Of a DNA stretch of 64,000 bases, positions 56,719 through 64,000 are shown in pieces. The notes beneath the pieces were generated by a model that was given only the letters and a program-made list of their open reading frames with translations, had not been told where the DNA came from and made no database searches. The stretch covers positions 1 through 64,000 of the forward strand of contig CALXSF010000006.1 of NCBI GenBank assembly GCA_944391055.1, in the 5' to 3' direction. The translations under genes and the position numbers were made by a program. The stretch's first letter is position 1; every line of letters begins with the position of its first letter. The stretch is from an uncultured Kiritimatiellota bacterium (GTDB taxonomy: Bacteria; Verrucomicrobiota; Kiritimatiellia; RFP12; DVOR01).

Positions 56719-57399
56719 GTGCCCCAGAGCGTATGCCCCCCAAAGTGGCACAGAAAAAACGCCCCTTTATCCGCCGCCGTCGAAAGCGACATCGTCGGCT
56801 ACACGACGATTACCACAACGCCCGGATTCAATATGCAAGGGGTGGTCTTCCAAGGGTTGCAGGAAGAAACCATCGTGTTGGATGAATTGCTTTCCGGTGA
56901 CTTCAAAACCGGTGATGAGGTTCAGCGTTACACGTCTGATGGTGGTTATGTCATTTATCAGTTTCGTGATGGCGAGGGTTGGTTTTGCGGCAGGGCACCT
57001 GCTTCAACAGCGCCTTTGTCTGCGGGAGACAGTTTTTGGCTTAAGACCCCAGACCGGGCTGTCTCCGTGACTTTTAAGGGAGCCGTAAAAGCGGGGGATT
57101 TCCGTTACGAGTCCACGGCGGGGATGCAGATGGTTTCAGTGGATTTCCCGTTTGAATTCGCCTTGAACGATGACACCGGACGGGTTAGTTGGACGAATTT
57201 GCGTTCCGGCGACCAAATCCAAGTCCTCACCCAAGATGGTGGTTACATGGTTTATACCTACTCGCAGGAAGGCGGAGAGAAATGGTTGGAGGGGCGTATC
57301 CCTACGGAAAAACGTATCCCTGTCGGTGCCGCATTGTGGTTGAAGACCGCCACTGCCGGTGCGGTGTTGCAAGTCAAAAATCCTATTCAAGCACAATAA
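56719..57399 (+). CDS. Cassette 1: AVESD-type secreted-protein homologue lacking a signal peptide
   Basis: The body from NAPLSAAVESDIVGYTTITT onward (about 215 residues) is homologous to the protein at 59934-60614. It has the same duplicated architecture: two ~90-residue halves, each with GD(E/Q)(V/I)Q ... YxVYxY and SFWLKTP or ALWLKTA. In front of it, where the intact copy has a signal peptide, there is only an out-of-place GTG-started stretch (MPQSVCPPKWHRK) with no promoter or ribosome-binding site of quality. The frame shows no stops, so the body is preserved. It is a 5'-truncated gene, perhaps a silent donor. A PEP-CTERM gene follows after 19 bases. Confidence 0.65.
   Translation: MPQSVCPPKWHRKNAPLSAAVESDIVGYTTITTTPGFNMQGVVFQGLQEETIVLDELLSGDFKTGDEVQRYTSDGGYVIYQFRDGEGWFCGRAPASTAPLSAGDSFWLKTPDRAVSVTFKGAVKAGDFRYESTAGMQMVSVDFPFEFALNDDTGRVSWTNLRSGDQIQVLTQDGGYMVYTYSQEGGEKWLEGRIPTEKRIPVGAALWLKTATAGAVLQVKNPIQAQ
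56745..56798 (+). repeat. Cassette 5' block, copy 1
   Basis: 54 bases shared with copy 2 (59383-59436, minus) with one difference, starting GTGGCACAG. From 56758 to 56835 the 78 bases also match copy 3 (59991-60068) with two differences. Confidence 0.9.
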
Positions 57400-57418
57400 A
57401 CAATTGGAGTACATCACG

Positions 57419-57982
57419 ATGAAATTCGCGTTTTTGCTTGGTTCCATCTTTGGATTGATTACGTTTGCGCATGCAGCCGCAATCAATTGGGGGAGTTCGT
57501 TGACGGGAGAAGTCTCCGTATCTCCCGGAGGTGGTACGATGACCAACTATGTCGCGTATCTCTGCATAGGGAATGAATCGGCGGCACAGGCCACCATTAC
57601 GGCAATCAAGAACGGGACTTGGAGCGCTCCAACCATTGGGCAAGATGGGAACGTCATTTCCAAAAACATCTCCGAATATGGAGGAGCGTATTACATTGAT
57701 GGTTCCGCCCCGTCTTATCTTGACTCATCCTATCTCGGGGATCAAAGTTTTTATGTCGTTGTCTTTGATGAAACGAGAGGTTACTTTACTGTAAGCAGTG
57801 TTTTGGAAGGCACTGTGTATGAACCGCCAAGCCCCGCAACAAATAATCCGGAATGGGGGACGGACGACTTGGTCGCTATTTCTGGTGGGTGGCAATCTGT
57901 CACCACCATCCCCGAGCCGACGGCATTGGCACTTTTGGCCCTTGGCGTGGCCGGGGTGGCGTTGCGCAGACGGCTTCGTTGA
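57419..57982 (+). CDS. Cassette 1: small PEP-CTERM protein
   Basis: 187 residues. Signal peptide MKFAFLLGSIFGLITFAHA, then INWGSS and a beta-rich domain with SPGGGTMTNYVAYLC and SFYVVVFDETRGYF, ending IPEPTALALLALGVAGVALRRRLR, a complete PEP-CTERM signal. TTGGAG precedes the ATG. It is a paralogue of 60639-61199 and, more distantly, of 58238-58774. It always stands behind an AVESD-type gene, suggesting that the two products act together at the cell surface. Confidence 0.85.
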   Translation: MKFAFLLGSIFGLITFAHAAAINWGSSLTGEVSVSPGGGTMTNYVAYLCIGNESAAQATITAIKNGTWSAPTIGQDGNVISKNISEYGGAYYIDGSAPSYLDSSYLGDQSFYVVVFDETRGYFTVSSVLEGTVYEPPSPATNNPEWGTDDLVAISGGWQSVTTIPEPTALALLALGVAGVALRRRLR

Positions 57983-57996
57983 CGGATCAAAGCGAA

Positions 57997-58037
57997 ACAA
58001 GAGGCGCGGATGGCTTTGCCATCCGCGCTTGTTTTTA
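57997..58037 (+). terminator. Intrinsic terminator of cassette 1
   Basis: AACAAGAGGCGCGGATGG pairs (one bulge) with CCATCCGCGCTTGTT, followed by a T-run. Confidence 0.88.
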
Positions 58038-58072
58038 TCACACCCCCACATCATCCATCCCACCACGGTTAT

Positions 58073-58116
58073 GTTTGCGTAGGATCGCCTCCTGCGATAG
58101 GCTACGCCGAACAAAC
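58073..58116. repeat. Imperfect 44-bp inverted repeat between cassettes 1 and 2
   Basis: GTTTGCGTAGGATCGC folds on GCGATAGGCTACGCCGAACAAAC around CTCCT with two small bulges. No T-tract. It lies between two convergent terminators, so a termination role is unnecessary. Confidence 0.6.
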
Positions 58117-58182
58117 GTAAATATTCGAACGACAAGTCCATAAAATATCGGCAAGCAAATAGGCAGAGTGTGATTTCGAGAA

Positions 58183-58216
58183 ACAAAAACACCCCGGCCA
58201 ACAAACGGGCCGAGGC
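58183..58216 (-). terminator. Intrinsic terminator of cassette 2 (minus)
   Basis: On the minus strand GCCTCGGCC pairs with GGCCGGGGT, followed by GTTTTTG. Confidence 0.85.
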
Positions 58217-58237
58217 GTCTTGTGCAAACCGTATCAA

Positions 58238-58774
58238 TCAATTCCGACGGCGTAACACCGCCCCAGCTACGCCAAGGGCCAACAACGCCAGCGCCGTCGG
58301 CTCGGGGATTTGAGCAATGAGATGCCAGTCGTCATCAGTCAGATTGACTACTCCAAATTGCGCATTAACATCTTGCTCATTCGTTTCAATCCAAGCAGGT
58401 GTCGTAATAGTTCGTGGATCAGTGTAAGCAAAACGATTCTCGTCAATTACAACCAAATAAACATCATAGGAAGTATTTGGGGTATAACGGCCTTGACTGC
58501 CGATGTCTGCTAACGTTTGAAGTGGGACATTCCCGTTCTTAACAATTTCATATGCAGAGCCAAACCCATCAATGGAAGATGGTGTTTGTCCAGATGCAAG
58601 AGCTTGCCATGTGGCTGTCATATCAGTTCCCGCAGCAACCACATATGAGAGTGCAGTCACACCCGTCATAGCGGAACCGTTGTCGGTGATTCGCATGGCG
58701 CCCCATTTAAAGGCTCCGGCGTACACGGCCGAATAAGACAGGGCGGCAACAATCAATAATACGAACTTTTTCAT
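58238..58774 (-). CDS. Cassette 2: small PEP-CTERM protein
   Basis: 178 residues. Signal peptide MKKFVLLIVAALSYSAVYA, then FKWGAMR, a domain with SYDVYLVVIDENRFAY in the position of the FYLVILDE motif of the other two copies, and IPEPTALALLALGVAGAVLRRRN at the end. The middle is strongly diverged from copies 1 and 3, whereas the tail is nearly invariant in both protein and DNA. AAGGAAAC precedes the ATG. It is the second gene of an inverted cassette. Confidence 0.85.
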   Translation of the reverse strand: MKKFVLLIVAALSYSAVYAGAFKWGAMRITDNGSAMTGVTALSYVVAAGTDMTATWQALASGQTPSSIDGFGSAYEIVKNGNVPLQTLADIGSQGRYTPNTSYDVYLVVIDENRFAYTDPRTITTPAWIETNEQDVNAQFGVVNLTDDDWHLIAQIPEPTALALLALGVAGAVLRRRN

Positions 58775-58790
58775 GTGTTTCCTTATGTTG

Positions 58791-59441
58791 TCAATTCAAA
58801 GTTACTGCGGCTTTGGATTTAATCCAAAAACCACTCCCGACAGGTACTTTACGTTCTGACAGGACACCTGAATCCTCATAGAACCCTGAGACACCTAATG
58901 TCTCCGCTGGGAAATAGAACAATGTCACATATTGTTTCCCATCCCAAATTTGCATTTCATCCCCCTCGGTCAAACCCGAGAAACGAAACTCATTGACTGC
59001 GGTTGCCTGTGGAGTTTTGGCTGCAAATAGTGACCACCCACTTGTTCCTTTGACAGGATTTCCCTCATCCAATACTACTTCCCCCGCAAGGATTGCGTGA
59101 GTCAAGGACGATGATTTCACCCAAACGGCTGTCCCCCGTGTCAGGCGCAACGTGCTTAGGCTTCCGTCATCTCCATAAAATCCCGCAGTTCCCATTGATT
59201 CTGAGGAGAAATAGAATAAGGTTGTGTATCGTGTTCCATCCCACACTTGAATTTCATCCCCATCCTGAAAATTACCACTAATTTCTTGGACTGAATAATC
59301 CCCCTGCCCTCCTTCATCGTCAAGCGAGGCAAAATTAATTCCGAGCAACGTCCAAGAACTTCCAGCCTCCACCGTTGAATATCCGACGATGTCGCTTTCG
59401 ACGGCGGCGGATAAAGGGGCGTTTTTTCTGTACCACCCCAA
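58791..59441 (-). CDS. Cassette 2: AVESD-type secreted-protein homologue lacking a signal peptide
   Basis: The body NAPLSAAVESDIVGYSTVEAGSS... (about 210 residues) has two halves with GDEIQVWDGTRYTTLFYF and GDEMQIWDGKQYVTLFYF, each closed by AVWVKSS or GFWIKSK. As in cassette 1 the signal peptide is missing: the frame is preceded by KNAPL with only a TTG-type start (MGWYRKN). The DNA joint GTGGTACAGAAAAAACGCC is the same as in cassette 1. After the first ten codons the sequence diverges from both other copies. Probably not exported in this form unless joined to another 5' end. Confidence 0.62.
   Translation of the reverse strand: MGWYRKNAPLSAAVESDIVGYSTVEAGSSWTLLGINFASLDDEGGQGDYSVQEISGNFQDGDEIQVWDGTRYTTLFYFSSESMGTAGFYGDDGSLSTLRLTRGTAVWVKSSSLTHAILAGEVVLDEGNPVKGTSGWSLFAAKTPQATAVNEFRFSGLTEGDEMQIWDGKQYVTLFYFPAETLGVSGFYEDSGVLSERKVPVGSGFWIKSKAAVTLN
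59383..59436 (-). repeat. Cassette 5' block, copy 2
   Basis: Reads on the minus strand as copy 1 with one difference in 54 bases. The right part (59383-59423) is also shared with copy 3. Confidence 0.9.
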
Positions 59442-59800
59442 AACCGCAGGGAAGTCGCTCTACGACTGGGGTTTCGAGGGATTCGCGAAAACGGCTTTTC
59501 GGGGGTTGTCTTTGTCGATAACCAAAGAGAGGGGAAACGGCTAATATGCTATCAATCAACAGATTGAAAAGAAACACCCTGTTTCTTCAAAAGAGCGGCA
59601 AACACGGATTTTTGAGTTGTCCAACGTTCGTCGCGACTTTTTCTAGGCCACAAAAAGCCCCTTGTTTCACCAATAAAGAGTTGGTTTACAATCGATTAAA
59701 CAAAGTAGATGCGGGTTTTCATGAATTGGTGGTACATATTCCGTTTGGATGAGCCATTTGGCCCCGACACCAAGAAAATACGACCATTGTTATTTTTCGC
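59442..59800. other. AT-rich intergenic stretch between divergent cassettes 2 and 3
   Basis: About 360 bases, clearly AT-richer than the rest. Short open frames exist on both strands without ribosome-binding sites. Contains no recognisable gene; upstream of cassette 2 I find no convincing promoter, while cassette 3 has one at its right edge. Confidence 0.45.
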
Positions 59801-59829
59801 TTGCAACACATTGGATAGCATGCTACTAT
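59801..59829 (+). promoter_or_regulatory. Cassette 3 promoter TTGCAA-N17-TACTAT
   Basis: TTGCAA (59801-59806) and TACTAT (59824-59829) with 17-bp spacing. It is the only convincing promoter of the three cassettes. Confidence 0.7.
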
Positions 59830-59835
59830 GATGGT

Positions 59836-59933
59836 GTCGTTCGGATGTCAGCGAGCGGCGACGGGTTGTCCTGCAATCCGAACGAAAGGCTGGCAGAATC
59901 AGGTTTTAGCCCTTAGCAAAGGACTTGACGAGA
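59836..59933 (+). promoter_or_regulatory. Structured ~100-nt leader of cassette 3
   Basis: CGTTCGGAT (near 59839) pairs perfectly with ATCCGAACG (near 59876), enclosing a GC-rich arm, and GGCT ... AGCC can form a second stem further on. AAAGGA and the ATG follow. It matches no riboswitch I can name. Confidence 0.5.
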
Positions 59934-60614
59934 ATGAACGCAAAACGGATCTTAGCCTGCGCGGCTCTACTCTTAGGGTTGCTGAGCTTTAACGCCCCTT
60001 TATCCGCCGCCGTCGAAAGCGACGTCGTCGGGTACACGACGATTACCACAACGCCCGGATTCAATATGGTTGGCGTGATCTTCAATGGCTTGGATGGGAA
60101 GGAAATGCCGTTGGGCGAAATCGTCAGTGGGGACTTCCAAGATGGCGATGAAATCCAAGTTTACGCGAAAAACGGGAATTATCAGGTTTATACGTATTGG
60201 AAGGATTCCGGCTGGCTGAATAGCGCGTTCGAGGAGGCCAAGGCCCCGCTCGCTTTAGGGACTGCGTTTTGGCTTAAAACCCCCAACCGCTCGGTTGAGG
60301 TCACCTTGAAGGGCGCGGTCTTGACGGGTGAGTACAAGTACGAAAGCGTCGAAGGGTTACAGATGGTGGCCTTGGGCGTTCCAAAGGCGTTTGACCTGAA
60401 CAAGGATTTGACGTGGGAGGGGTTGGCGGATGGCGATGAGATTCAGATTCGCGAAGGAGAGTCTTACATCCCCTATACTTATTGGAAGGATTCCGGCGGC
60501 TGGTTGGATGCGGGGTTCAATCCCGCCGACAAAGAGGTTCCAATCGGTGCCAGCGTCTGGTTACGAACCGCGAAGGCTGGGGTGACCGTCATTGCCCGTG
60601 GTTTGAACAACTGA
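59934..60614 (+). CDS. Cassette 3: intact AVESD-type secreted protein
   Basis: 226 residues with a complete signal peptide (MNAKRILACAALLLGLLSF then NAPLSA, cleavage before AVESD). The mature protein starts AVESDVVGYTTITTTPGFNM and consists of two homologous halves: GDEIQVYAKNGNYQVYTYWKDSGW with AFWLKTP, and GDEIQIREGESYIPYTYWKDSGGW with SVWLRTA. No membrane anchor is present, so it is free or bound to a partner. AAAGGA stands before the ATG. The family is unnamed as far as I can tell. A PEP-CTERM partner follows after 24 bases. Confidence 0.85.
   Translation: MNAKRILACAALLLGLLSFNAPLSAAVESDVVGYTTITTTPGFNMVGVIFNGLDGKEMPLGEIVSGDFQDGDEIQVYAKNGNYQVYTYWKDSGWLNSAFEEAKAPLALGTAFWLKTPNRSVEVTLKGAVLTGEYKYESVEGLQMVALGVPKAFDLNKDLTWEGLADGDEIQIREGESYIPYTYWKDSGGWLDAGFNPADKEVPIGASVWLRTAKAGVTVIARGLNN
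59991..60068 (+). repeat. Cassette 5' block, copy 3 (expressed copy)
   Basis: 78 bases starting AACGCCCCTTTATCCGCC, matching copy 1 with two differences. Unlike copies 1 and 2 it is preceded by signal-peptide coding DNA (GAGCTTT) instead of CAGAAAA. Confidence 0.92.
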
Positions 60615-60638
60615 CCATTCATATCGGAGGAAAGATTC

Positions 60639-61199
60639 ATGCGTACCTTATTGTTGGCGTTGTTTACGGCTGTCATCGCCGCTGCTTCCCAAGCGGCTTC
60701 GATTATGTGGGGGTCGGGTTCTCCAACCGCAAAAATCGAATTGTCGCCCGGGGGTGGGACTCTTACTAATTACGTCGCGTATCTTTGCGTGGGAGATGCG
60801 ACGGCAGCCAATGATGCGTTGAACGCTTTCAAGAGTGGGACTTGGACACCTCCGTCAATTGGCGAGAGCGGAATGTCGCAAAGCCCGCTAGAGAGCGGCA
60901 TTCTCTTGAACAGCACTACTGCAGACCTCGGCGATGGGTTTACAGCGGGCGAAACCTATTCCTTCTATCTTGTGATTCTTGATGAAAGCGGCGATTATGC
61001 GATGGTCAGCTCTGCTTTGGAGGGCACTCCCTATACTCCTGGCTCGACAGACCCTGCGTCGCATGTTTGGTGGACGAAAGATCAGTTGTCCGGAACCTCT
61101 GGTGGATGGGTGACTGCCACCACGATTCCCGAGCCGACGGCGCTGGCGTTGTTGGCGTTGGGCGTGGCCGGGGTGGCGTTGCGGCGACGTGTGGCGTGA
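60639..61199 (+). CDS. Cassette 3: small PEP-CTERM protein
   Basis: 186 residues with GGAGGA before the ATG. Signal peptide MRTLLLALFTAVIAAASQA, then IMWGSGS, SPGGGTLTNYVAYLC, YSFYLVILDESGDYAM and the tail IPEPTALALLALGVAGVALRRRVA. It is the closest paralogue of the cassette 1 protein. Co-transcribed with the intact AVESD protein, so these two form the presumably active pair. Ends before a strong terminator. Confidence 0.88.
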   Translation: MRTLLLALFTAVIAAASQAASIMWGSGSPTAKIELSPGGGTLTNYVAYLCVGDATAANDALNAFKSGTWTPPSIGESGMSQSPLESGILLNSTTADLGDGFTAGETYSFYLVILDESGDYAMVSSALEGTPYTPGSTDPASHVWWTKDQLSGTSGGWVTATTIPEPTALALLALGVAGVALRRRVA

Positions 61200-61221: not shown

Positions 61222-61253
61222 AAGAGCCCTCGGCCACGGCCGAGGGCTCTTTG
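61222..61253 (+). terminator. Intrinsic terminator of cassette 3
   Basis: AGAGCCCTCGGCC pairs with GGCCGAGGGCTCT around AC, followed by TT. Confidence 0.85.
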
Positions 61254-61409: not shown

Positions 61410-63065
61410 TCATGGATTGGAGGTTTTGTTTCCCTCGCCGATGAAGGCCATGAGTTTTTGTTCGCATTCATCGTGATGGGCTTTGCACTTATCCCAAGTC
61501 CATTCGGGCGTTTCATACATTTTACGCTGTTTGGGGGCCTTCTCTTTCTGTCCCCATGCGCTGACTTTTTCCTGTGGGGAGTGATTGCTCAGAGAGGAGT
61601 TGTCGGAGTTATTCAGCAAACAGAGATTCCCGATGTAATCAACGGCGTTAACGGGAGCGCCCACCCAAGATTTGGAATAGGTCGGGTTACGTGGCATAAA
61701 GTGTTCGACAGAGGAGCGATGCTTGAAGACATAGGCATCCTTGCCCTTTGACATGAAGAGGTAATCCAGCAGGTTAAGCAGGAGGTGCGGCGTGTCGGTG
61801 CCCCGGCACAGCCACTTGCCTTCCGCTTGGTCTTTGTCTTTCGTCACGCGTTCTCTGACACTCTGTTCCAGGTGTTCTATCAAGTCCCTGTCGGTCGCTT
61901 TCTCACTGCTAAGCAGAAACCTTAATGCGTCCTTCACCCAAGTTCGATTGCGCCGCGAAGTATAGGTGACCTCCAGCATCGCCTCCAGCGCAATAAGCTG
62001 TTTGCGCGTGTCGGAGTCTGGTTCCGGATTCGTTTCCCCTTCCTCCCGCCAAGGGGCGATCACCCAACGCTGAATGTTCCCCTGACCGTCCAAATCCGAG
62101 CGGACAAACCACGTGTCGAACAGGTCGCGCACCTTTTCCAGATGGGCTAGGAAGCCTTTGGCGAAGCCCTCATGTCCACAGAGCTTGGGGGTGAAGGTCT
62201 TGAGCAGTTGCCGCTCGTCCAGCGAGATGTTGTTTTCTCCAGGATAGAGGCTCAAGGCGATGAGCAGGAAATTGGGGAAGTCCATGCGGGCCACGGCGCG
62301 CGCCTGTTGGGTTTCGCTCTGAGCCGCCTCCTTCTTGAGGCGGGTGAAATCCGCGCACAAATCCCAACGGCTCCGGAAATTCTCTTGCGATTCCTTGTCC
62401 TTATACTGCTGCATCAGTCGGCTTTTGACCACATCGACATCCGCCAACTGCACGCCGCGGTTGTTCATCACCTCGAAATACTTGGCGATATCCGTTCGTT
62501 CCGGCAAGGTGATTTGGTAGAGCAGAACCTGTTCTTTCAGAAACGTGCAAAAGGCGCCTTCCGGTTTCGCATAAGGGCGCTCGGCGTCAATCGCCTCCTC
62601 CTCCTTATAGAAGGTATAGGTCGTGAAACGGAGACAAGCCGCGGCCATCGCCCTGACGGCGGGCTTTTCCAAGAAACTCTGTTCGCCTTCCTCAATCGCG
62701 GTGTTGCCGACACAAAAGAAGGCGTCCAGAAAGCGCGATGCATCCGGGCGGTTCTCGAAGCACAACGGGCACGTCTTGATCAATCCCAAATGAACGGAGT
62801 GAAAGAGATGACGGAAAAGCAACGTTAGGGTCGTCAGGCGCTGCTGGCCGTCCACCACCTCCAAGACATTCCCCTCCCGCTGCATCACCACCAGCGTGCC
62901 CAGATAATAGTTCTTCCTTTTGGATGTAAAAGCCAGCCACAGGTCTTCCAGCAGCTGGTCAATCTCGCGCTCGCCCCACGCATACGACCGTTGATAGAGC
63001 GGAATCCGAAAACGCGCACTCCCATTCAGCAATTCGCCCAAGTTATAACGTTTTATGTTTCCCAT
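61410..63065 (-). CDS. DUF262/DUF1524 protein, GmrSD-like
   Basis: 551 residues. The N-terminal DUF262 domain shows FRIPLYQRSYAWGEREIDQLLEDL and the conserved VVDGQQRLTTLTLL, a ParB-like nucleotide-binding/hydrolysis motif. The C-terminal DUF1524 part has SSVEHFMPRN and VDYIGNLCLLNNSDNSSLSN, the HNH-like nuclease core. This architecture is that of GmrSD-type (type IV) restriction enzymes that attack modified phage DNA. GC content is lower than in core genes. It starts three bases after the stop of another gene of the same type. Confidence 0.85.
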   Translation of the reverse strand: MGNIKRYNLGELLNGSARFRIPLYQRSYAWGEREIDQLLEDLWLAFTSKRKNYYLGTLVVMQREGNVLEVVDGQQRLTTLTLLFRHLFHSVHLGLIKTCPLCFENRPDASRFLDAFFCVGNTAIEEGEQSFLEKPAVRAMAAACLRFTTYTFYKEEEAIDAERPYAKPEGAFCTFLKEQVLLYQITLPERTDIAKYFEVMNNRGVQLADVDVVKSRLMQQYKDKESQENFRSRWDLCADFTRLKKEAAQSETQQARAVARMDFPNFLLIALSLYPGENNISLDERQLLKTFTPKLCGHEGFAKGFLAHLEKVRDLFDTWFVRSDLDGQGNIQRWVIAPWREEGETNPEPDSDTRKQLIALEAMLEVTYTSRRNRTWVKDALRFLLSSEKATDRDLIEHLEQSVRERVTKDKDQAEGKWLCRGTDTPHLLLNLLDYLFMSKGKDAYVFKHRSSVEHFMPRNPTYSKSWVGAPVNAVDYIGNLCLLNNSDNSSLSNHSPQEKVSAWGQKEKAPKQRKMYETPEWTWDKCKAHHDECEQKLMAFIGEGNKTSNP

Positions 63066-63068
63066 GAA

Positions 63069-64000
63069 TTAAACCTTCTTCTCGGTCATCGTCTTGCAGA
63101 CAACCGAGTTCTCGTCGTTAAACGGACTCAAAGTAAACGGACTCAAAGTCCCCCTCCTGTCCCTTTCGAGCTCGGCATCCAACCGCGACAACGCCCTGCC
63201 AAGCACCGGCAAGGTCGCCGCCGACGCAATCGCCTGGCACGCTTGCCTGAAATAGGTTTTGCCGGCGACGGAGAACATCAGGCGCCCGCTCGCGAAACGC
63301 TCATAGTAAGCCAGACGCCACAGCTGCTTATGGTGCGCCCCCAGCCCCGCCTCCCCGAATCGATCCACCAAAAGCAGGATCAGCGCCTCATAGACCGTCC
63401 GCGCATAACCATCGCCCACGCGCCACCACCCTTTATAGAAGCAATTTTCCCGATAAAACGCATGGAACACCTTCAACGTCTCGCTCCGGCAATCCTGCGT
63501 CGAATCGAACTTGCCCTCCTTAGGGAAAAGCCACAGCGCAAGCCGCGCATACGTCGCGGCATAGGCAAAGAACGACTCGCCATTGACGATCAGTCCATTC
63601 ACCTGCGCGGTCGGGTCGCAATCCGACGAAAGCCCATTCGCCAAGCGTTCACAGCCCCACCTCAGCCGCAACAAATCCGCCATCTCCGACGATTTGCCGC
63701 GCAGCAGAACCTCACACAGCCGGCTCACATTGTGCGCCGGGAGCACCTCGTCCACCCCTAGCGTGATCCCTTGGAACTCCCCCAAATCCTCTTGTCTGGA
63801 AAACGCCTTCTTCTCCTCGCCGCGGCACCCCCGTCGCGCCCAAAAAAGCAATGCCGTTAGCAACCCCTCCACGCGCTTCTCCGATTGCTCATCCGCGATT
63901 TCCTCCTCCCAGCGCCGCTCCAACTCCGTCATCCGCTCCGGCGAAGGCAACCGACCGCGTGCCATCGCGCCATAGTGATACGCCTTCAGCAGATTCTCCA
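63069..64000 (-). CDS. Second DUF262-associated protein, C-terminal part (5' end outside window)
   Basis: The frame runs through the window end (ENLLKAYHYG upstream of the first ATG at 63965), so only the C-terminal ~310 residues are seen. They are helical, with VEGLLTALLFWARRG, EVLPAHNVSRL, GYARTVYEALILLLVDRFGEAGLGAHHKQLWRLAYYERF. No DGQQR motif lies in the visible part; the assignment rests on the tight three-base spacing with a DUF262/DUF1524 gene, because such genes often occur in pairs. The last residues contain a small tandem repeat (TLSPFTLSPF). Confidence 0.6.
   Translation of the reverse strand, partial: ENLLKAYHYGAMARGRLPSPERMTELERRWEEEIADEQSEKRVEGLLTALLFWARRGCRGEEKKAFSRQEDLGEFQGITLGVDEVLPAHNVSRLCEVLLRGKSSEMADLLRLRWGCERLANGLSSDCDPTAQVNGLIVNGESFFAYAATYARLALWLFPKEGKFDSTQDCRSETLKVFHAFYRENCFYKGWWRVGDGYARTVYEALILLLVDRFGEAGLGAHHKQLWRLAYYERFASGRLMFSVAGKTYFRQACQAIASAATLPVLGRALSRLDAELERDRRGTLSPFTLSPFNDENSVVCKTMTEKKV

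Follow-up and report, generated by a model that had tools for sequence, protein, structure and literature searches.

The window analysed here is a stretch of 64,000 nucleotides from an uncultured Kiritimatiellota gut bacterium (assembly GCA_944391055.1, a draft of 2.15 Mb in 27 contigs; positions 1 to 64,000 of contig CALXSF010000006.1, here called C6), and it contains three copies of a two-gene unit, the arrangement of which suggests a switch between alternative proteins. Each unit comprises a gene for a protein named here after the AVESD residues that start its mature part, followed by a gene for a PEP-CTERM partner. A fourth, silent unit lies just beyond the window (C6:66036-67264). The positions and orientations that a first-pass annotation of this DNA had assigned to the three units are borne out by the sequence, as is its observation that units 1 and 2 begin at the same truncated point; unit 4 begins there too, and units 1, 2 and 4 all lack a signal peptide. 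Unit 3 is the only one of the four that has a signal peptide (MNAKRILACAALLLGLLSFNAPLSA), and it alone is preceded by a promoter-like element and a leader. It forms a divergent pair with the silent unit 2, and a proposed expression segment lies between the inverted copies of a short box with which the two units are provided. The elements of the array within the window are the following:

56758..56790, plus strand: putative 33-bp recombination box (unit 1), with the central dinucleotide CC at 56762-56763 and the same sequence as boxes 2, 3 and 4
56758..57399, plus strand: AVESD protein body of unit 1, silent, with no signal peptide and no promoter element
57419..57982, plus strand: PEP-CTERM partner of unit 1, with its own signal peptide (PF07589, 1.8e-06)
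58238..58774, minus strand: PEP-CTERM partner of unit 2 (PF07589, 1.1e-06)
58791..59423, minus strand: AVESD protein body of unit 2, silent, with no signal peptide and no promoter element
59391..59423, minus strand: putative recombination box (unit 2), pointing the opposite way to boxes 1 and 3, with its central dinucleotide at 59418-59419
59424..59990, plus strand: proposed invertible expression segment flanked by boxes 2 and 3, comprising the promoter, the leader and the larger part of the signal peptide
59801..59829, plus strand: promoter element TTGCAA-17 bp-TACTAT, conserved inside an otherwise diverged segment
59934..60008, plus strand: signal peptide of the expressed unit 3, its last six codons inside the box
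59934..60614, plus strand: AVESD protein of unit 3, the predicted expressed unit in the assembly
59991..60023, plus strand: putative recombination box (unit 3), with its central dinucleotide at 59995-59996
60639..61199, plus strand: PEP-CTERM partner of unit 3 (PF07589, 1.8e-06)

The box is a block of 33 bases, AACGCCCCTTTATCCGCCGCCGTCGAAAGCGAC, that is identical in the three units of the window, synonymous sites included, as the first-pass annotation had noticed. A similarity search of the 2.15-Mb assembly returned just one further copy, on the minus strand at C6:67264, 3.3 kb past the end of the window, and this is where unit 4 begins. At the protein level, the box covers the last signal-peptide residues (NAPLSA) and the first residues of the mature protein (AVESD). 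In within-genome comparisons covering six genomes that carry such arrays, this one included (G000, G001, G005, G007, G011 and G015), box codons 1-8 were 100% identical wherever the residue matched, whereas over the remainder of the AVESD proteins matching residues shared their codon in 39% of cases; the constraint at the box therefore acts at the level of the DNA. In genomes with at least three units, the copies within one genome agree on average at 97-100% of bases across positions 0-30 of the box; the value drops to about 30% before -10 and to about 40-55% after +50. The box is also species-specific, being uniform to within a base or so among the units of one genome and different between genomes (AACGGGCGTCTATCCGCCGCCGTTGAAAG in G011, AACGCCCCTTTGTTTGCCGCCGTCGA in G001 and G005). 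Its centre of symmetry is a non-palindromic dinucleotide, CC, GG, CT or GT depending on the species, about which the arms of the silent copies pair at 12 of 12 positions in G015 and 11 of 12 in G004.

The layout of the expression segment is repeated in G001, G005, G007, G010, G011 and G015. In each of the seven assembled expression sites (G000, G001, G005, G007, G010, G011 and G015), exactly one copy of the signal peptide is present, and in every case a silent unit lies in divergent orientation to it at a distance of 550-710 bp. A promoter-like element recurs at these sites, with CTTGC, a spacer of about 17 bp and TACTATGATGG in four genomes and variants elsewhere, and its distance to the ATG is nearly constant (100-102 nt in 7/7 loci). 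A scan with the sigma-70 consensus did not report the element of unit 3, so that the case for a promoter there comes from its conservation. Thus, of the expression signals that the first-pass annotation had reserved for unit 3, the signal peptide stands as described and the promoter stands by way of the conserved element. As to a conserved RNA structure in the leader, folding energies were unremarkable, with the possible exception of G010.

The distribution of the units was followed in collections with one genome per species, the genus set consisting of this genome and 16 other members, and the order set outside the genus of 42 genomes. Searching relatives for AVESD/PEP-CTERM pairs without a signal peptide, as the first-pass annotation had proposed, revealed silent units of the AVESD type in 9 of the 16 other genus members, five of which have arrays of 3-5 units. 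A DNA search across 95 genomes detected box-like sequences in 8/16 of these members and a single short, weak and different match outside the genus; a profile search further identified one silent unit in G004 and, in G016, a lone unit. The layout is conserved across the genus: the six array genomes have 3-5 units per locus in alternating orientations, and in G004, G006, G008 and G010 at least one unit lies on a cut contig. Full-length silent units number 20, from nine genomes, and every one of them is an open reading frame, as would be the case for genes that are occasionally expressed. The single unit in G016, a genome without an Mpi-like invertase, is one AVESD/PEP-CTERM pair equipped with a signal peptide of its own; it lacks a matching box (L105:10007, G016:C14). 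The named records of the group are uncultured Kiritimatiellae, which for some of them come from the gut of sheep, roe deer and water buffalo.

A difference in order between two relatives provides the clearest trace of rearrangement. When related loci were compared for inversions, which the first-pass annotation had suggested doing among strains, the loci of G001 and G005 (two different species) had colinear flanks with 94% and 90% DNA identity, and between them about 10 kb from outermost box to outermost box were inverted, including the expression segment (80%) and bystander genes (91%). At the left breakpoint, homology extends across the box and breaks off immediately beyond. The encoded proteins are 96-97% identical in the flanks and 92-93% identical for the bystanders, versus 30-54% for the unit proteins. 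Contigs end inside boxes in G006 (C26 and C30) and G010 (C1); a repeat of this length is often no barrier to an assembler that uses long words, and mixed arrangements would therefore be a natural reason for such ends. In this genome, in silico inversions between boxes 2 and 3, between boxes 3 and 4, and then between boxes 1 and 2 fuse MNAKRILACAALLLGLLSFNAPLSA in frame to units 2, 4 and 1, respectively.

The arrays of G001, G005, G007 and G011 contain toxin genes; in G001 and G005, a YafQ-like toxin gene and an 8xMP membrane-protein gene are inverted along with the array (L045:6394-7793 and L046:11799-13263). That such genes select against the loss of units is only a thought, to which the zeta-toxin-like gene of this genome runs contrary, lying outside the outermost box.

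The genome encodes one serine recombinase, at C14:11027-11704, that belongs to the Mpi family of master DNA invertases (NF009949, 312.5 bits; NCBIfam cut-off, 272). Mpi-like proteins are encoded by 10/10 genomes that have silent units, by 3/7 of the remaining genus members and by 2 of the 42 relatives of the order outside the genus; within the genus, the association of Mpi with silent units yields a Fisher p of 0.015, with genomes counted as independent of descent. Comparison with the XerC/D-like, integrase-like and Mpi proteins of the genome revealed no similar recombinase within the array loci, so that an enzyme acting in trans would be needed. Action of Mpi at a distance has precedent, since the enzyme inverts 13 regions in B. 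fragilis (PMC4747536). The published Mpi sites are ARACGTTCGTN in B. fragilis and GTTCGTTTAA in B. intestinalis (PMC8375218); half-sites resembling them stand in register in the boxes of G011 (AAACG-GG-CGT) and G010 (AACG-GT-CGTTTAAA), and the box of this genome resembles them in part. Mpi is the probable enzyme at the box. Inverted repeats near mpi, considered as extra targets, showed nothing recurrent, and viral contigs contained no relatives.

Taken together, these observations argue, with a probability of roughly 0.85, that the locus is a site-specific inversion array, in which a single promoter is provided and an Mpi-family serine recombinase acting at the boxes selects the two-gene cassette to be expressed. 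The recombinase, encoded elsewhere in the genome, would act at the 33-bp box that opens each unit and would invert the DNA between two oppositely oriented boxes. Crossover at the central dinucleotide would join promoter, leader and signal peptide to another unit, in frame because the box straddles the junction between signal peptide and mature protein. Recombination of boxes 2 and 3 would flip the promoter segment onto unit 2, recombination of boxes 3 and 4 would move unit 4 behind the promoter, and unit 1 would be reached through a second inversion; the selected AVESD protein and its PEP-CTERM partner would then be expressed and exported together.

It should be noted that several observations weigh against this reading. 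The source genome is a draft that is 93.4% complete. The arms of its box are weakly symmetric (5-6/12 pairs), and another dyad, deeper in the coding sequence, has a slightly higher average symmetry score. The right breakpoint of the G001/G005 inversion is less sharp than the left, homology resuming about 150 bp outside the box; the two genomes are from different species, and the unit bodies are too diverged to be traced cassette by cassette. Contig ends at boxes could also be produced by the repeats themselves. Direct pairs of boxes (1 and 3; 2 and 4) would permit deletion, which would have to be avoided somehow. Furthermore, G002, G003 and G014 encode an Mpi-like invertase (loci L066, L060 and L061) and yielded no array, apart from a weak, interrupted match in G002, and Mpi may therefore have other tasks or targets. 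Current switching in the cells is deduced from assemblies and thus from outside any single population.

Three other explanations have to be weighed. The same switch could be operated by a different enzyme, namely, a XerC/D-like tyrosine recombinase, the integrase-like protein on C8 or a recombinase missing from the draft. The genome does encode two XerC/D-like proteins and one weak match to an integrase, and the 34-bp symmetry in G015, with its 10-bp middle, could suit a tyrosine recombinase; however, the two Xer-like proteins look like an ordinary pair, the occurrence of Mpi tracks the arrays, and the box resembles published Mpi half-sites at least in part, all of which makes a different enzyme unlikely. 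A static cluster of duplicated genes, the extra copies of which are 5'-truncated and unexpressed, would fit the lack of promoter element and signal peptide in the silent copies, and it draws on the fact that switching is deduced rather than directly observed. Such a cluster is nevertheless very hard to reconcile with open frames in 20 of 20 full-length silent units that all break at the same base, with a layout kept in several species and with two relatives that differ by an inversion at the boxes, and we regard it as most improbable.

The remaining alternative is that the short boxes recombine homologously with the help of RecA, or undergo gene conversion, in the manner of pilin or msp2 systems. 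It would account for boxes that are homogenized within genomes and different between them, and for the similarity of some pairs beyond the box, such as units 1 and 3, which share 102 nt at 90%. However, in several genomes the common core measures just 26-33 bp, G001 and G005 differ by a clean inversion, and there is no 3' homology specific to the units, so that conversion tracts would lack a second anchor; this explanation is accordingly quite improbable. The first-pass annotation had noted a conserved 3' end in the DNA coding for the PEP-CTERM proteins, and had read variable middles between conserved ends as a gene-conversion or shuffling system for surface variation. The 3' conservation is real, but it is not specific to the units, there being 29 similar stretches genome-wide, and the 3' end therefore plays no visible part. 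What would be swapped is the entire unit downstream of the box rather than a variable middle. The comparison with relatives supports the core of that proposal, namely, a single expressed copy, silent copies and shuffling for surface variation, and in place of gene conversion site-specific inversion fits better. Gene conversion with two conserved ends, of the pilE/pilS type, was considered and rejected, because the 3' block is genome-wide rather than family-specific.

The AVESD protein is confidently predicted to be all-beta with two similar halves (AlphaFold model of the mature part of the unit 3 protein, mean pLDDT 91). It has no Pfam family and no relative in the PDB by profile, and when the model was compared with PDB folds, TM-scores were low and nothing matched at E <= 0.001. 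Two AVESD members bear a weak resemblance to fucose-binding lectins (best value 2.3e-06, far below the family cut-off). No fold match was found for the PEP-CTERM partner. All three partners in the window carry the PF07589 PEP-CTERM signal and an exosortase gene is present in the genome (C6:112647), which makes surface display of the partner plausible. Display on the surface may serve escape from phages or from the host, or a change of attachment.

Several features flank the units or separate them:

57996..58036, plus strand: terminator-like hairpin 3' of unit 1 (regional terminator matches not above shuffles)
58186..58221, minus strand: terminator-like hairpin 3' of unit 2 (regional terminator matches not above shuffles)
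61222..61251, plus strand: perfect 14-bp inverted repeat 3' of unit 3, a possible terminator
61410..63065, minus strand: GmrSD-type gene between unit 3 and the fourth unit, a bystander (PF03235, PF07510)
63069..63998, minus strand: second gene with GmrSD_N, extending beyond the window end, a bystander (PF03235)

The two adjacent GmrSD-type genes, which separate unit 3 from the fourth unit, occupy 61410-64000 and continue to L005:4503. Beyond them, at L005:4591-5904, a 199-aa open reading frame without a Pfam match lies within imperfect inverted repeats (58 nt, 71%) and resembles an insertion element with an interrupted frame. The PEP-CTERM gene of the fourth unit has a second, 5'-altered partial copy 2.3 kb away (about C6:68250-68880, 95% over 300 nt). 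In the region that includes both copies (L005:6036-8880, that is, C6:66035-68879), the zeta-toxin-like gene (PF06414, L005:7385-8017) and a small gene upstream of it lie between them.

If the inversion array operates as proposed, an expression-site cassette switch would be added to a gut lineage for which the literature searched reports none, and Mpi-type invertases, known for turning promoters on and off, would be tied to a choice among silent genes. The fast divergence of the units beside neighbours that are 96-97% identical points to strong pressure on the surface proteins, perhaps from phages or the host. It is fairly probable that antigenic variation of this kind is genus-wide in gut Kiritimatiellae, with a distant Mpi-type invertase, a site within signal-peptide codons and two-gene cassettes whose exchange would not show in the mature protein and whose divergence (30-54% identity) far outpaces that of their surroundings. 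The sites, the predicted junctions and the candidate enzyme are all named by the analysis.

The first-pass annotation knew of no such system in the phylum. A literature search, which covered few subscription papers, found none reported in Kiritimatiellae, and as far as that literature goes the system is new in this lineage; its logic is already known from mycoplasmas and Bacteroides. On the best reading, the locus would work like the mycoplasma vsa locus and the Bacteroides shufflons and not by gene conversion. In the switching of the S-layer protein gene sapA of Campylobacter fetus, one promoter serves silent homologs with conserved 5' ends by inversion, as proposed here, but that process depends on RecA and on long 5' homology.

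In Mycoplasma pulmonis vsa, inversion by the tyrosine recombinase HvsR sets promoter, ribosome site and gene start before a silent gene (PMC2268961). Common to both systems are one expression site with the 5' coding part, silent genes that lack it and site-specific inversion that joins, or here would join, the two; the silent genes here start at the same short site in both orientations, and the fusions are in frame in silico. However, vsa belongs to another phylum, its proteins are unrelated, its units are single genes, and the shared part is the first 714 nt rather than a signal peptide. The vsa recombinase is encoded near the locus, whereas a distant serine invertase probably acts here; no HvsR/Xer1-type tyrosine recombinase was found in the array loci by comparison with the genome's own recombinases. 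In M. agalactiae vpma and M. bovis vsp (Xer1; PMC2268961), a unique promoter is likewise moved among silent genes by inversions at repeated sites, but these sites lie 5' of the start codon, so that whole genes including their signal sequences are switched, and the tyrosine recombinase is encoded in the locus.

Among gut bacteria, the B. fragilis SusC/SusD shufflons (Tsr0667; PMC4747536) and shufflons CC and EE (PMC3090145) are similar in that multiple inversions exchange paired genes for outer-surface proteins, and they differ in having a tyrosine recombinase, other protein families and other sites. The Mpi-controlled capsule promoters of B. fragilis (PMC4747536, PMC8375218) resemble this locus, at least in part, in the half-site and probably also in having a serine invertase of the Mpi family that acts at a distance; unlike here, single promoters are turned on and off, with no silent cassettes and no site within coding sequence. 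Akkermansia, also in the Verrucomicrobiota, has many invertons, some of them near genes for surface proteins that include PEP-CTERM proteins, and in the available portions of the two reports these are described as simple elements, with no cassette array served by one expression site (PMC11892184, PMC13343947). The present system is thus distinct from the known ones in the probable type of its enzyme, in the location of its site in signal-peptide codons and in its two-gene cassettes.

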